From positions 1 to 35,108 of the IMG/VR virus record IMGVR_UViG_3300042545_001900: a DNA stretch of 35,108 nt; one strand, written 5' to 3'. The stretch comes from a virus. Under the pieces are notes generated by a model. It ran no database searches, was not told where the DNA came from, and saw only the letters and a list, made by a program, of their open reading frames with translations. Below are positions 20,035-29,206 of the stretch, piece after piece (position 1 is the first letter of the stretch; every line of letters begins with the position of its first letter). The position numbers and the translations under genes are program-made.

Positions 20035-21791
20035 GCGCCACCCCACTCGACATCTTCGCCCCAGATTTCGGCGATGGTGAGTTGCACCGGACCCGTGTCC
20101 CTACCTTTGTCCCTACCTTGGTCATCGAGGTAGGGCCGTTTTTCCTCTGCAATATCAACGCTGTCCCTACCGTCCCTACCTGCCTTACCTATATTTGAGT
20201 CATGGGCGCGCGAGCGTACGTGGGCGAAAGAGGTTGGGCCGGTTAGGCCGGTAGGGACATCCCTGATTTCGCTCGCATTTTCTGTCCCTACCTTGTCCCT
20301 ACCTTGGGACAGAGGTTGGGCCACGACTGTCCGGTAATACCGGTATTCACGAGCCGTGCCAATGCGTTCCCGTCGACGTGCGGGAAGTCCATCTGACGCT
20401 ACACCTTCTCCGTAGCCCAGGCGAATAAAAACGTCCGCCAAACGCATCTGGTCAGCGCGCGTGGCCTTCGCCGGCTCGATGTGCAGGAAGTGCATGGCGT
20501 CGCGCGTGGTGAGGTACGCGCGGCCGGTGGCCCATTCCTCAAGCTCGGCCTCCCACGGGTCGGAGATGTAGCGCTCATCGGTCTCGGCCCGAGCCCGCTG
20601 CTCCTCCTCCTTGGTCAGCCACCACTGGTTGCGCACGTCCTCGAGGCCCGCGGCTTGCGCGACGATGGACGCCTTCGCTGCGTGGGCAGCTTCGCCCCAC
20701 AGCTGGTCCCGGTACTTGCGCAGCCGGTCGATGCGGATGGGCTGCGTGCAGCGGACAATCCAGTAGCGCCGCGCGCCGGTCGCATCGTCCAGGTACGCGC
20801 TGGCGTTGGTCGTGCCCGCGAACACGCAGCGTCGCGGCCAGTCGACGGGCTCGGCAGCGTAGGGCGGGCGGAACTTGTCGTTCTGCCGCGACGTGAAGGC
20901 CTTGAGCGCCGCCTTGTCGGCGCGCTTCCATTTGTCGAGCTCCGAGAACTCGACGATGAAGTGGCCAGCCAACGCCATGCAGGCGTCCTTGGTGTCGACG
21001 TCGATGGGCACGTTGTCGGAGAACCAGCTCGTCTTGCCGATGCCGCCAGCGAGCACGCGCAGCAGCGTCGACTTGCGGGCGCCCTGCTCGCCTTCAAGCA
21101 CGAGCATCGTGTCGACCTTGCAGCCGGGCTCAAGGGCTCTGGCCGCGGCCGAGATGAGGAAGCGCCGCGACACAGCGCGTGTGTGCTCGCCATCTTCGAC
21201 GCCAGCGCACGCCGTCAGGAACGTGTCGATGCGGTTCTTGCCGTCCCACTTCGCGGCGCAGCCTTCGATGTAGTCGGTGAGCACGTCGACGCTGTTGCGG
21301 GCCGCGATGGCCCCGAGCTTCGCGCCGACGGTCTTGCTGCCGACAGTCAGGCCGTGCGCGCGCTCGGTCCACTGTTGAACGTAGTGGATATCCTCGGGGC
21401 GCATCTCGCGCGGCCACCCGGTGCGGCCGTCGTCGTCGAAGTCGCCCGGCGGACGGCGCACCCACATCCACTTGACGCGAAAGGCGTCGAGCACCAGGGC
21501 GCCTTTGATTTCGTCGTCGTTGGCCAAGATGGTGAGGGTGTTGCCCTCGGTCGGCTTGAGGTCGCCGTTCTGGCTGTAGAGCAGGAACTCGCGCCAGGAC
21601 GTTTTCGTACGGGCACCGTGCGCATCGAGACGGGCGACCGCATCGGGGCCGCCGAGGTGCTGCTGCACACGAGCTGCCGCACGCTTGGCGCGACGCTCAA
21701 AGCCCACCAGTTCATGGGCGCGCATGTCGAGCACCTCGCCCAGCGGCACGAGGTCTTCGCCTTCGTCGATGTGGTCTTCAGTCTCAGACAC
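20031..21791 (-). CDS. VirE-family / superfamily 3-like replicative helicase
   Basis: 586 aa, GTG at 21791 with GAGG upstream. Walker A is GEQGARKST (234-242), Walker B is in GHFIVEFSELD (276-286), then GTTN (326-329) and DDATGARRYW (335-344), the set typical of virulence-associated E (PF05272) ATPases in phages, which act as replication helicases. The N-terminal 150 residues show no clear primase motif. The C-terminal tail (about 495-566) has repeated GRD units (QGRDKVGT, AGRDGRDS, QGRDKGRD) encoded by GTCCCTACC DNA repeats. The tail may therefore be shaped by a DNA signal, an origin within the initiator gene. Confidence 0.8.
   Translation of the reverse strand: MSETEDHIDEGEDLVPLGEVLDMRAHELVGFERRAKRAAARVQQHLGGPDAVARLDAHGARTKTSWREFLLYSQNGDLKPTEGNTLTILANDDEIKGALVLDAFRVKWMWVRRPPGDFDDDGRTGWPREMRPEDIHYVQQWTERAHGLTVGSKTVGAKLGAIAARNSVDVLTDYIEGCAAKWDGKNRIDTFLTACAGVEDGEHTRAVSRRFLISAAARALEPGCKVDTMLVLEGEQGARKSTLLRVLAGGIGKTSWFSDNVPIDVDTKDACMALAGHFIVEFSELDKWKRADKAALKAFTSRQNDKFRPPYAAEPVDWPRRCVFAGTTNASAYLDDATGARRYWIVRCTQPIRIDRLRKYRDQLWGEAAHAAKASIVAQAAGLEDVRNQWWLTKEEEQRARAETDERYISDPWEAELEEWATGRAYLTTRDAMHFLHIEPAKATRADQMRLADVFIRLGYGEGVASDGLPARRRERIGTAREYRYYRTVVAQPLSQGRDKVGTENASEIRDVPTGLTGPTSFAHVRSRAHDSNIGKAGRDGRDSVDIAEEKRPYLDDQGRDKGRDTGPVQLTIAEIWGEDVEWGGA
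20097..20305. repeat. Iteron array inside the helicase gene, candidate replication origin
   Basis: GTCCCTACC(TT) occurs six times on the plus strand in three close pairs: 20097 and 20109, 20163 and 20172, 20284 and 20295 (pair spacings 12, 9 and 11 bp). Inverted copies lie at 20128-20135 and 20250-20258, and a degenerate one at 20182-20190. T-rich and A+T-rich stretches are interspersed (TTTTTCCTCTGCAATATC near 20139, CTTACCTATATTTGAG near 20184). Position within the 3' part of the replication gene is as in lambda O. Confidence 0.62.
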
Positions 21792-23834: not shown

Positions 23835-23884
23835 CGCACCCGGACGGATTCGAACCGCCGACCCTCTGGTTCGAAGGCAGATGA
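23835..23884 (-). other. attP: attP core: 3' half of tRNA-Arg (anticodon TCG)
   Basis: The minus strand reads the anticodon loop CTTCGAA with part of the stem (CTG...CAG), a short variable region, a complete T arm (GGCGG-TTCGAAT-CCGTC) and the 3' acceptor strand CGGGTGC plus G, ending at 23835. There is no D arm, no 5' acceptor strand and no encoded CCA, so it is not a working tRNA gene. Phages that integrate in tRNA genes carry just such a 3' part to restore the host gene. The integrase gene ends 50 bp away. The flanks 23661-23834 and 23885-23933 hold no gene. Confidence 0.8.
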
Positions 23885-23933
23885 CGACAACACGCCACTT
23901 GCGGCGCTCGCGAAATACGCGTCACAGCTCGAC

Positions 23934-25058
23934 TCATGCGACACCGTCCGTCGACTTTGGCGCCGCTTGCGTCTTGTGCGTCTGTGGGTTGGTCATCTGG
24001 TGGTCACGAGCTGTGGAGATGCGGTCTAGGCCTGCGCGGAGGTCGTCCACGACGAGGTGGCCGTAGGTGTTGGCCGTGAGCACCGGGCTGCTGTGGCCGA
24101 GCACGCGCTGCACGATTGCCAGGCTGACGCCGGCCTGCAGCAGCAGGGTGGCGCAGGTGTCGCGCAGGTCGCGGAAGGTGATGGGGCGGGTGATGCCGAT
24201 GCGCGCCAGCACGAGCGCGATGTCGCGGGCCGTCTTCGCGTCCTCGCTACGCATCTCGCCAGTCGCGGGCGACGGGAACACCAGGGCGCTCTTGTGCGAA
24301 AGCAGCACAGCCGCAAGCAGCGGGCGCAGCTCGGGGTGCACCGGGATGACGCGGACCTTGCCGGTCTTCGCGCTCTTGCGCTTGTTGCTGGCGCGGACCG
24401 TGATGGTCCAGGCGGCGACGTCGACGGCTTCGCGGGTGAGCGCCCAGATTTCCCCGCGGCGCATCGCCGTGAAGATGGCCGTGGCGTAGATGGCGCGCTT
24501 GTGCAGGTCCTGCTCAGCAGCCAGCAGGCGGCGCACTTCGTCAAGCGACAGCGTCGTCAGCGCCTTCTGCGGCACCTTGCGCGGCTTGGTGGCCGACACA
24601 GCGGCCGCGCCGACGGCGACCACGCCGTGGTCCTTCGCCCAGGTGAGGACCGTGCGCAGCATGGTGCGCGCGTGGTTGACACTTCGGGGAGCGTAGCCCG
24701 CGACATCGAGGCGCGACAGCCAACGCTCGACCTCGACGCCGGTCAGCATGTCGACGCGGACAGCGCTGATGGTTGCGTCAATCATCCGGGTCTGCGCGCG
24801 GACCTTGGTGTAGCTCGCGAGACGGCGAGCAGGGCCGGCGAGGTACTTCTCGACGACGTCGCCGATGTTGAGCCCTTGCGGGTTCGGCGACTCAGGCGCC
24901 AGGCCCTTCTTGCGGCGGGCGACGTCGAGCTTGATTTCCGCGAGCATGCGCACGGCGTCCGTCTTTGACGGCGCAGTGATGACGGTGCGCGGACGCTGGC
25001 CGTGCTCGTCGTAGTAGTCGAGGCGATACTTGCCGCCCCCGAGGTCAACGACGCCCAT
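23934..25058 (-). CDS. int: Tyrosine-type site-specific integrase
   Basis: 374 aa. Catalyses recombination between attP and the host tRNA. Domains: a short N-terminal arm-binding part (1-55, beta-rich: YRLDYYDEHGQ), a SAM-like core-binding region (about 65-160), and the catalytic domain (170-345). Active-site residues: Arg200 in TAMRRGEI, Lys near 231-234 in the beta hairpin AKTGKVRVIPV, Arg299 in FRDLRDT, His322 in LGHSS and nucleophile Tyr332 in NTYGHL. Box II is unusual: the common HxxRH is here RxxRD (Arg296, Asp300). ATG at 25058 overlaps the preceding HTH gene (TGATG). Confidence 0.92.
   Translation of the reverse strand: MGVVDLGGGKYRLDYYDEHGQRPRTVITAPSKTDAVRMLAEIKLDVARRKKGLAPESPNPQGLNIGDVVEKYLAGPARRLASYTKVRAQTRMIDATISAVRVDMLTGVEVERWLSRLDVAGYAPRSVNHARTMLRTVLTWAKDHGVVAVGAAAVSATKPRKVPQKALTTLSLDEVRRLLAAEQDLHKRAIYATAIFTAMRRGEIWALTREAVDVAAWTITVRASNKRKSAKTGKVRVIPVHPELRPLLAAVLLSHKSALVFPSPATGEMRSEDAKTARDIALVLARIGITRPITFRDLRDTCATLLLQAGVSLAIVQRVLGHSSPVLTANTYGHLVVDDLRAGLDRISTARDHQMTNPQTHKTQAAPKSTDGVA
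23991..24007 (+). repeat. Candidate integrase arm-type site, right
   Basis: GGTCATCTGGTGGTCAC, matching 23767-23783 at 15 of 17 positions. It lies inside the last codons of the integrase gene, about 105 bp from the attP core. Confidence 0.42.
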
Positions 25059-25300
25059 CAGCGACGCCCCTTAAGCGGCAGGACCTTCGCGGTCGCGACC
25101 TCGCCCTTGATGATGCGTTCAATCTCTGCGCGCCGGAAGCGCAGCGACTCGATGCCGTCGACGATGCGGGCGGCAAAGTATGGCGTGTTCGGGTTCTTCG
25201 CCGCACGCTCGATGCTGCGTCGCCCGACGCCGACAAGGGCGGCCACTTCGGCGGCCGTCATCGTTGGCTTCTGCTCCTCGATGGCTTGCGTCGCGTTCAT
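25058..25300 (-). CDS. 80-aa HTH protein, possible excisionase or regulator
   Basis: ATG at 25300 (ATGA overlap with the upstream HTH gene). TMTAAEVAALVGVGRRSIER is a MerR/excisionase-like helix-turn-helix, then YFAARIVDGIESLRFRRAEI gives the wing and the following helix of HTH_17-type proteins. Directly upstream of the integrase in the same operon, it could be the recombination directionality factor; two candidates lie side by side and sequence does not decide. Confidence 0.62.
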   Translation of the reverse strand: MNATQAIEEQKPTMTAAEVAALVGVGRRSIERAAKNPNTPYFAARIVDGIESLRFRRAEIERIIKGEVATAKVLPLKGRR

Positions 25301-25521
25301 GGCTGCACCTTCACCTGCATCGCCGACTGCTCGCTGTGCCACTTGATGGAGGCGCGGCCGAAGTAGAGGTCACGGCCACCAGGCACCTTGACGGCGGGCA
25401 TGCCGCGCTTGACCCAGCGACGCACCGTCACCCGGTGCACCTTGAACAGGCGCACCATGTCCTCCATCTTCATCGTGTACTCGTCGCCTGCGGGTTCGGT
25501 TGTGGTCGTCGTCTCGGTCAT
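25297..25521 (-). CDS. 74-aa MerR/excisionase-like HTH protein
   Basis: ATG at 25521 is chosen because GAGGGG lies six bases upstream; a GTG at 25554 directly follows the RecT-like stop and would add a Thr-rich 11-residue piece. YTMKMEDMVRLFKVHRVTVR then RWVKRGMPAVKVPGGRDLYF is a clear winged HTH of the excisionase type (bind, then an arginine wing near GGRDLYF). It likely binds near attP or an operator. The Thr-run N-terminus is low complexity. Confidence 0.65.
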   Translation of the reverse strand: MTETTTTTEPAGDEYTMKMEDMVRLFKVHRVTVRRWVKRGMPAVKVPGGRDLYFGRASIKWHSEQSAMQVKVQP

Positions 25522-25554
25522 CGTGGTCCCCTCGCTCGTCGTGGTCGTCGTCAC

Positions 25555-27657: not shown

Positions 27658-28283
27658 AGTGCACCCCCAGCCGACAGCCCCTGACCAAAGGCCTCAGAGC
27701 GTCGAAAGTTGTCGCCTGAACCAATGTTCAGGTTAAGGATCAAGCGGTTGGCGCGGAATGCCTCGGCCCAGAGCGCCAGCACCTCGGGTGCGCCGTCGAT
27801 GGCCACGTCCGCGAGGTCGGCGTCGTAGCCGGTGCAGGACTCGTCGCAGCTCGGGTCGACCTCGTAGCGGTCGGGGCCCACCTCGATGAGTCCGCGGGTG
27901 CACAGGTAGCCGAGCGCCCGGAGCTGGTCCCCGGTGTGGTTGCCCTGGCGCCAGCGCTCGAGCCGGTCGCGCCGGTGCAGGGCGCCCGCACAGAGCACAG
28001 GCCACCAGCGGTCAGCGGAGCGCTCAGGCAGCGTGGTGGCCCACAGGTCGAGCACGCGCACACTGCGGATTGCTGCGGCCGTCGCGCGAATTGCACGCTG
28101 CAATGCGCGCGGATGCACCGGGCCGTCGAGCTCTACAGCGCGCAGCAGGCGCTCGGCGTGCGCGACCGCGGTGTCGCCGTGGTCGGGGTGGATGGGCAGC
28201 GCGTCTGCCGGCAGGAACGCCACGAGCAGCGTCTCGCTGATGAGGCGGCGGCACTCGCTGATGAGGTCGGTGCGGCTCAGCAT
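27654..28283 (-). CDS. 209-aa protein, unknown
   Basis: ATG at 28283 gives MLSRTDLISECRRLISE and overlaps the first operon gene by 7 nt; the longer frame to 28412 lies inside that gene and is rejected. Mostly helical: VAHAERLLRAVELDGPVH, then ALQRAIRATAAAIRSVRVLD. A loop DPSCDESCTGYD holds two cysteines, and the end NRLILNLNIGSGDNFRRSE is more beta-like. No family is recognised. Confidence 0.6.
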   Translation of the reverse strand: MLSRTDLISECRRLISETLLVAFLPADALPIHPDHGDTAVAHAERLLRAVELDGPVHPRALQRAIRATAAAIRSVRVLDLWATTLPERSADRWWPVLCAGALHRRDRLERWRQGNHTGDQLRALGYLCTRGLIEVGPDRYEVDPSCDESCTGYDADLADVAIDGAPEVLALWAEAFRANRLILNLNIGSGDNFRRSEAFGQGLSAGGAL

Positions 28284-28465
28284 GTGGCCACCTCCGCGCC
28301 CCAGCCGACCACCTCGTAGGCGAGGCGCTCGTATTCGGCCGCAGCGAACATCGCCGCGTCCAGGAAGGTCGGGAAGGCACGCGAAGCGCCGTCGAGGCAC
28401 CCCACGACCCACACGCCGTTTTCCCGCTTCAAGGTCACGCTCATGGCCACTTCTCCCTCGGGCAT
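28277..28465 (-). CDS. First gene of the leftward early operon, 62 aa, unknown
   Basis: ATG at 28465 (MPEGEVAMSVTL) has AAGGA eight bases upstream. ATG at 28444 has GGGAG and is a fair alternative. The protein is a small beta-then-helix unit (MSVTLKRENGVWVVGCLDGA then FPTFLDAAMFAAAEYERLAY). It starts about 113 nt after the likely transcription start of the leftward promoter. It may act early, for example in host takeover or as an anti-repressor; nothing in the sequence shows this. Confidence 0.6.
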   Translation of the reverse strand: MPEGEVAMSVTLKRENGVWVVGCLDGASRAFPTFLDAAMFAAAEYERLAYEVVGWGAEVATC

Positions 28466-28500
28466 GGTGCTGGTCCTTCGTTCAGGGGTCAACCAAAACT

Positions 28501-28582
28501 GCGAGCAATAACGAACACTTAGACGTGTTCGCAGTTGTTCGCAGACGCTCGCCAATGTTCGCGAACGCTCGCTATCGTTCGC
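28501..28582. promoter_or_regulatory. Array of GYTCGC units phased at 10 bp
   Basis: Six GYTCGC hexamers start at 28527, 28537, 28547, 28557, 28567 and 28577, exactly 10 bp apart. Two more in inverted orientation (GCGAGC at 28501-28506 and ACGAAC at 28511-28516) are also 10 bp apart. CGAACAC and GTGTTCG (28512-28518, 28525-28531) form a perfect dyad at the turn between the two sets, and GTTCGCGAAC (28557-28566) is a palindrome. The units lie on one face of the helix, just downstream of the leftward promoter start. Confidence 0.72.
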
Positions 28583-28674
28583 CTAGTTTAGGCGTCTTGC
28601 TATGACTCGTCAACTATGACGAACGCGCCTAAGTGACGCGCGTCACACCGGGTCTACGGCATGACGCCTAAGTG
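28516..28674. promoter_or_regulatory. Four copies of operator CGCCTAAGTG
   Basis: Copies are at 28626-28635 and 28665-28674 (plus strand, exact), 28588-28594 (inverted, core CGCCTAA) and 28516-28525 (inverted, 9 of 10). One overlaps the leftward -10 box and one lies just before the repressor gene's -10-like box. A 14-bp palindrome GTGACGCGCGTCAC (28633-28646) sits beside one copy. The likely ligand is the adjacent 87-aa HTH protein. Confidence 0.58.
28585..28613 (-). promoter_or_regulatory. Leftward early promoter
   Basis: On the minus strand TTGACG (28613-28608) and TAAACT (28590-28585) are separated by 17 bp, the only good -35/-10 pair seen in the control region. Transcription would start near 28578 and run into the early operon with a leader of about 113 nt. 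A CGCCTAA operator (28588-28594) overlaps the -10 box. Confidence 0.66.
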
Positions 28675-28680
28675 CGGCGC

Positions 28681-28686
28681 TACGAT
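28681..28686 (+). promoter_or_regulatory. -10-like box of the HTH repressor gene
   Basis: TACGAT lies 6 nt before the ATG at 28693, so the transcript would be leaderless or nearly so. No consensus -35 hexamer is seen at 16-18 bp; the CGCCTAAGTG operator occupies that interval. No ribosome site precedes the ATG. Confidence 0.45.
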
Positions 28687-28692
28687 CCGTGC

Positions 28693-28956
28693 ATGCTCGA
28701 CCACGTGCCGACACTTTCCGAGATTGAGCGCGAAGAGGGCGCACTGCGCCGATTGCGGTTGCTTGCGGCCCTCGAGGCCACCGGAGCGTCGCAGTCTGAC
28801 CTCGCTCGCAAGATGAACCTTGCGGGTGAGCGCACTGCTGTGACGACGGTGAATCGCTGGTGTCGAGGCAAGGCCGTCATGAGCGAAGCGACACTGCGCT
28901 ACGTGCTTACGGTTCTGGGTCTTGGGGCCGACTGGCAGCCACCGACGCCGCAATGA
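28693..28956 (+). CDS. 87-aa HTH repressor (lambda repressor-like fold)
   Basis: ATG at 28693 (MLDHVPTLSEIEREEGAL) is preferred to the GTG at 28672, which lies in the operator. LLAALEATGASQSDLARKM then VTTVNRWCRGKAVMSEATL match the XRE/lambda-type helix-turn-helix with Gln-Ser-Asp at the turn and the recognition helix near TTVNRW. There is no dimerisation or protease domain, so it is Cro-like in size. It is the only rightward gene at the divergent control region and likely represses the leftward promoter and itself, making it the best candidate lysogeny regulator. Confidence 0.72.
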   Translation: MLDHVPTLSEIEREEGALRRLRLLAALEATGASQSDLARKMNLAGERTAVTTVNRWCRGKAVMSEATLRYVLTVLGLGADWQPPTPQ

Positions 28957-28968
28957 CGTTGCAAAGCC

Positions 28969-29014
28969 GTTTTCCGGGCATCTATCCGGAGATTCCGGAT
29001 AGATGCCCCAAAAC
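28969..29014. repeat. Long inverted repeat after the repressor gene
   Basis: Arms GGGCATCTATCCGG (28976-28989) and CCGGATAGATGCCC (28995-29008) pair perfectly over 14 bp around AGATT. A further GTTTT/AAAAC pair extends the stem. There is no T-run after it on either strand, so it could terminate by a different route or be a protein-binding site. The gap 28957-29218 otherwise holds no gene. Confidence 0.6.
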
Positions 29015-29041
29015 GAAAAACCGCCGACTTTCGTCAGCGGT
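29009..29041 (-). terminator. Rho-independent terminator for leftward transcription
   Basis: On the minus strand ACCGC-TGAC-GAAA-GTCG-GCGGT (29041-29020, one internal mismatch) is followed by TTTTTCGTTTT. The GAAA tetraloop and T-run are classic. It would stop late leftward transcription, which ends at 29996, from running into the control region. Confidence 0.68.
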
Positions 29042-29206
29042 GAGGCCTCGCGGCAACAGGGGGGAGAAGTCTCCGCGAAGCCGGCGTCAGGCTACGCGCG
29101 TTCAGTGTGCAACGTCAACGCCAGACGCGACGGTGGCATTTTCCAGAAAAAACGTGGCGTGTTTCCGGTGTGTTACGCGCACGCTTTGCCGCAGTGCTGG
29201 TTCGGA

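Follow-up and report, generated by a model that had tools for sequence, protein, structure and literature searches.

A phased, operator-like GYTCGC array at the predicted start of the leftward early operon in an uncharacterised high-GC temperate phage

Introduction

What might a row of near-identical hexamers, repeated every 10 bp beside a predicted early promoter, do for the phage that carries it? We asked this of an array in the IMG/VR virus record IMGVR_UViG_3300042545_001900, all of which was analysed as the window (35,108 bases, 67.5% GC). Head-to-tail wHTH filament operators are known from few systems. If the reading preferred below is true, an uncharacterised high-GC temperate phage would join them, and the regularity of the array, with its conserved hexamer and exact spacing, would suit measurements of cooperativity and of the effect of phasing.

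Organisation and statistics of the array

Reading of both strands across 28440–28700 placed six exact GYTCGC hexamers on the plus strand, at 28527, 28537, 28547, 28557, 28567 and 28577 (span 28527–28582), and an inverted pair on the minus strand, consisting of an exact GCTCGC at 28501–28506 and, 10 bp away, GTTCGT at 28511–28516, which carries one mismatch. The first-pass annotation had described eight GYTCGC-type hexamers, two in one orientation and six in the other, each 10 bp apart. That layout stands with seven exact copies rather than eight, and the spacing is exactly 10 bp inside each orientation group; the two groups, however, face one another across a dyad with an inner centre-to-centre gap of 16 bp, so the eight sites do not form one unbroken 10-bp ladder.

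The regularity is far from random. Scored over six copies and six columns at lags of 7–30, the array contains 2 mismatches, whereas the minimum was 5 in 60 Markov-resampled genomes and also 5 in the window minus the array. An origin by chance is excluded by this difference between 2 mismatches and the 5 of the best random sequence. The array is also unique within the window, with a chain score of 28 against 15 for the next-best 3-site chain. The 4-bp linkers (AGTT, AGAC, CAAT, GAAC, TATC, CTAG, AGTT and TATT) all differ from one another on the plus side, and 22 of their 32 positions are A or T (69%), compared with 32.5% in the window (p = 3e-5) and 42% in the adjacent intergenic stretch (p = 0.002). 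Because the linkers are AT-rich yet unlike in sequence, recent tandem duplication does not account for the array; a constant hexamer joined to linkers that are constrained in composition alone is a pattern that fits a protein-binding array. The array is thus a genuine, strongly non-random, operator-like element inside a phage control region. It is known in kind and unusual in its regularity, and the mechanism proposed for it below is probable.

The geometry is less strict than had been claimed. A spacing of 10.0 bp is not exactly one helical turn, since relaxed B-DNA repeats every 10.5 bp, and at that repeat the six plus-strand sites drift by about 86 degrees. The idea that all contacts lie on one DNA face therefore holds roughly, unless the bound DNA is slightly overwound.

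Position of the array in the leader and immunity region

The promoter scan returned a sole promoter-like site in 28200–29200, the predicted leftward early promoter TTGACG-17-TAAACT (28585–28613, minus strand, reading from 28613 to 28585); shuffled sequences give 0.1. This site backs the earlier placement of the array just downstream of a leftward promoter start. Transcription would begin at about 28578, within the last array hexamer, and with that start the array spans about -4 to +78 and takes up most of a leader of about 113 nt. Comparison of the leader with known RNA families gave chance-level matches only. The first gene of the leftward operon encodes 62 aa (28277–28465, minus strand) from an ATG preceded by GAAGGA. 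A TTG open reading frame, which shares its frame with this gene, crosses part of the array, but a coding role was rejected because the ATG at 28465 is preceded by an SD and the 10-bp period is not a triplet one.

The operon runs through small unknown proteins, a Gp157-like protein, a RecT-like protein and two HTH_17 proteins to a tyrosine integrase (23934–25058, minus strand). TGTCCCTACCTT-type repeats occur elsewhere in the window, at 20096–20123, 20163–20180 and 20283–20306, clustered around the end of the helicase gene. The genes examined are all leftward, save one uncertain plus-strand open reading frame and the gene of an 87-aa HTH_3 protein (28693–28956, plus strand), which diverges from the leftward early operon. 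The HTH_3 protein is a putative repressor, matching PHROG 2328 'transcriptional repressor' with an E-value of 6.5e-6, and its gene is probably leaderless. Centromere and iteron sites, too, can consist of small phased repeat arrays, and on that precedent the present array might serve replication or partition, in an iteron-like or parS-like manner, with its promoter position incidental. We regard this as highly improbable: the phage has an integrase gene, the scanned proteins yielded no recognised partition gene, and both the position and the start of the array coincide with the promoter.

Two exact CGCCTAAGTG sites lie on the plus strand upstream of the repressor gene, at 28626–28635 and 28665–28674, the latter upstream of TACGAT (28681–28686, plus strand), a -10-like hexamer of that gene read by eye. 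A one-mismatch copy, CGTCTAAGTG (28516–28525, minus strand), sits at the centre of the array dyad, so that the claimed separation of the array from the CGCCTAAGTG operators does not hold. Two perfect palindromes, TCGTCA-ACTA-TGACGA over the -35 (28607–28622) and GTGACGCGCGTCAC (28633–28646), are possible further operators. Together, the CGCCTAAGTG sites, the array and the palindromes mark an immunity region in which two or more classes of site occur.

The CGCCTAAGTG-like site inside the dyad would suit an arrangement in which the 87-aa HTH_3 protein, the immunity regulator of this phage, binds the array with adjacent hexamers paired as half-sites; a CII-like activator might do the same. Direct-repeat operators also serve CII-type and OmpR-type regulators, lambda CII reads TTGC-N6-TTGC on one face and so offers a precedent, and several prophages carry phased GTTGCC arrays at the 5' end of an XRE-type gene. 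Set against this, the 87-aa protein already has good candidate operators in the CGCCTAAGTG sites, HTH_3 repressors are usually dimers on palindromes, and no CII-like gene was recognised among the scanned proteins. We judge this arrangement unlikely.

An RNA hairpin within the array

The dyad that the first-pass annotation had placed where the orientation turns was located at 28499–28544, with 20-nt arms that are 80% complementary and a 6-nt loop. When transcribed leftward, it would fold, at -23 to -24 kcal/mol (z -4.2), into an RNA hairpin that is followed by UUUUGGUU, and it ranks second in stability among 33 hairpin-plus-T4 candidates in the window. Since so strong a hairpin precedes UUUUGGUU, a leader terminator is possible. 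The inverted copies could then act as an attenuator, folding into an intrinsic terminator or an anti-SD control element, with the repeats working as RNA or as alternative pairing partners; the linker positions of the arms, 6 of 8 of which are also complementary, agree with such pairing. The attenuator would nevertheless account for just four of the eight repeats, and a strict 10-nt period is meaningless in RNA. The U residues behind the hairpin form a short, interrupted run, and a simple scan did not call a terminator at this place; inverted copies of a DNA site would in any case give a hairpin. On balance, control by the hairpin is improbable as the purpose of the array.

Candidate binding proteins and a proposed mechanism

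Two small proteins of the leftward operon are candidate binders. The leading one is an HTH_17/BldC-like wHTH protein of 85 aa (25297–25554, minus strand), and the second is an HTH_17/excisionase-like wHTH protein of 80 aa (about 25058–25300, minus strand), encoded directly before the integrase. Both match the PHROG 'excisionase and transcriptional regulator' (E 1e-5 and 8e-7). The 85-aa protein has a weak match to NCBIfam HTH_BldC (E 2.6e-4), whose 20.8 bits fall well under the curated cut-off of 77; the 80-aa protein has a weak match to TIGR01764 excise (E 0.005), likewise under its curated cut-off. BldC structures appear among the weak PDB matches; single-sequence structure models of both candidates reached a pLDDT of 56–58, too low a quality for use. 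These two are likelier to bind the array than the 87-aa HTH_3 protein, and we favour them because their superfamily includes known binders of direct repeats one turn apart.

We propose that the array is an operator for head-to-tail oligomers of a small wHTH protein made from the early operon, which would repress that same operon; in our judgement this has about an even chance of being right. The array would act as a multi-site operator where the leftward early transcription unit begins. Its binder would be a small monomeric wHTH protein of that unit, for which the two BldC/Xis-like HTH_17 products of the genes just before the integrase are the likeliest candidates. One hexamer would be bound per turn, with GYTCGC contacted in the major groove and the AT-rich linker in the minor groove; the phased AT-rich linkers fit this model because the wing would be expected to read minor-groove shape, as in BldC. 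The bound protein would then polymerise head-to-tail along the array, and the resulting filament, covering about -4 to +78, would block initiation or early elongation and probably bend the DNA. The early (recombination/integration) genes would thereby come under a delayed and cooperative feedback, distinct from the control exerted by a CI-type repressor at the CGCCTAAGTG sites. We infer binding, oligomerisation, repression and the identity of the binder by analogy with other proteins of this superfamily.

The regulatory reading of the first-pass annotation is thus supported in part: the phasing is beyond chance, the array begins at the predicted promoter start, and the operon contains two wHTH genes whose products could plausibly form filaments. 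Its strict one-face claim is weakened, and further points tell against a filament operator: the candidates' profile scores lie below curated cut-offs, the likely attP is without matching sites, the exact 10.0-bp spacing and the inverted pair depart from Apl, and regulators of the CII and OmpR types use direct-repeat operators too.

A bolder version of the filament model, which we consider quite unlikely, would make the locus a new type of autoregulatory wHTH operator. Here, an exact 10.0-bp bidirectional array would be nucleated at a dyad that holds an immunity-repressor site; growth of a filament of the early operon's BldC/Xis-like protein would compete with the repressor or be capped by it, and the same dyad would double as an RNA terminator hairpin.

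Relatives, motif controls and other arrays

No close relatives were found when phages, plasmids, IMG/VR and GTDB genomes were searched at the DNA and protein levels, with RecT, the integrase, HTH proteins, the repressor and early proteins as queries. The nearest RecT relatives (L066–L068 and L023, 50–68%) had no GYTCGC array in the stretches covered, and their regulatory regions are not homologous to the present one. Four GYTCGC copies at 10 bp occurred in 18 viral contigs, mostly as perfect tandem repeats, whereas the composition-matched control hexamer GYTGCC, searched in the same form, occurred in 39. GYTCGC was accordingly rejected as a recurrent viral array motif, and because the control hexamer is commoner, the GYTCGC array matches are no evidence for a shared regulator.

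Other arrays were observed in the course of these searches. Several related prophages have an XRE-type gene whose 5' end carries GTTGCC four times, at an exact spacing of 10 bp and with variable linkers (for example L045:9131–9166), and these arrays resemble TTGC-N6-TTGC; the 10-bp spacing was part of the search pattern that yielded these loci (L028–L030, L040, L042–L046, L049, L052, L058, L059 and L061). In a virus of 36% GC, six GTTCGC units at 10 bp precede the ATG of a 136-aa gene by about 30 bp (L011:8597–8656 and L019). A similar array is found between terminator-like and promoter-like sequences at L008:131–166.

Comparison with known systems

The lambda CII site also has direct repeats 10 bp apart, but it consists of two repeats that flank a -35 and serve an activator. 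PHO boxes, bound by PhoB or PhoP, resemble the array in having a conserved core plus four variable bases per turn, arranged head-to-tail. The likeness invites the thought that a host OmpR/PhoB-type response regulator, such as actinobacterial PhoP, uses the array and so ties phage induction to host physiology: PHO units comprise seven conserved and four less conserved bases, with the core GTTCACC in S. coelicolor (PMC4415409), against six plus four here with GTTCGC. The unit here is nevertheless a 10-nt GYTCGC unit and not an 11-nt one, its core differs from the GTTCACC of Streptomyces, and eight units would be many, PHO boxes usually having fewer. We therefore hold use by a host regulator to be very unlikely.

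BldC offers a closer parallel in mechanism. It binds as a head-to-tail wHTH filament, as proposed here, and its operators at Streptomyces whiI and smeA-ssfA share with the array an AT-rich character, a specific base pair per repeat and a variable number of repeats (PMC5859096). BldC operators, however, have 9-bp repeats with the consensus AATTXXXXC, recognised by indirect readout of an AT-rich minor groove (PMC5859096), unlike the 10-bp repeats and strongly conserved GC-rich hexamer of the array, and the HTH_BldC score given above does not place the 85-aa protein in that family. RdfS, of the same superfamily, forms filaments as well, through head-to-tail oligomers on direct repeats one turn apart (PMC11963761).

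The remaining comparison, with Apl of coliphage 186 and P2-like Cox, involves the attachment site. Beside the integrase gene, next to its stop, lies the likely attP (23835–23902, minus strand), a tRNA-like sequence whose 3' half is good and whose 5' half is degenerate; it scores 21.3 bits, below the gathering score of 29. It contains an anticodon loop CTTCGAA (Arg, TCG, by eye), and its 35-nt core had no exact match among GTDB representatives. No GYTCGC chain rises above background in it, the best 3-site chain being at the 78th percentile of the genome. Between pR and pL, Apl has seven 6-bp operators that are 10–11 bp apart, and it has five more at attP (PMC7498355). As the likely attP here is without the same sites, we do not class the array with the Apl/RDF operators and propose only a shared way of working. 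The array further differs from the Apl operators, which are 10–11 bp apart and run in one direction, in its exact 10.0-bp spacing and two inverted copies, and from 186 in that the promoters are divergent, not face-to-face, with the array downstream of the start. For 186, the reason for early-promoter repression by RDF-like proteins is described as poorly understood (PMC7498355). What the array shares with the Apl and Cox systems is a set of 6-bp direct repeats about one turn apart in the early, lysis-lysogeny promoter region, together with the presence in the early operon of small HTH proteins that are RDF-like, here at scores below curated cut-offs: Apl is itself such an early-operon product, and the candidate binders of the array are likewise wHTH proteins of the early operon.
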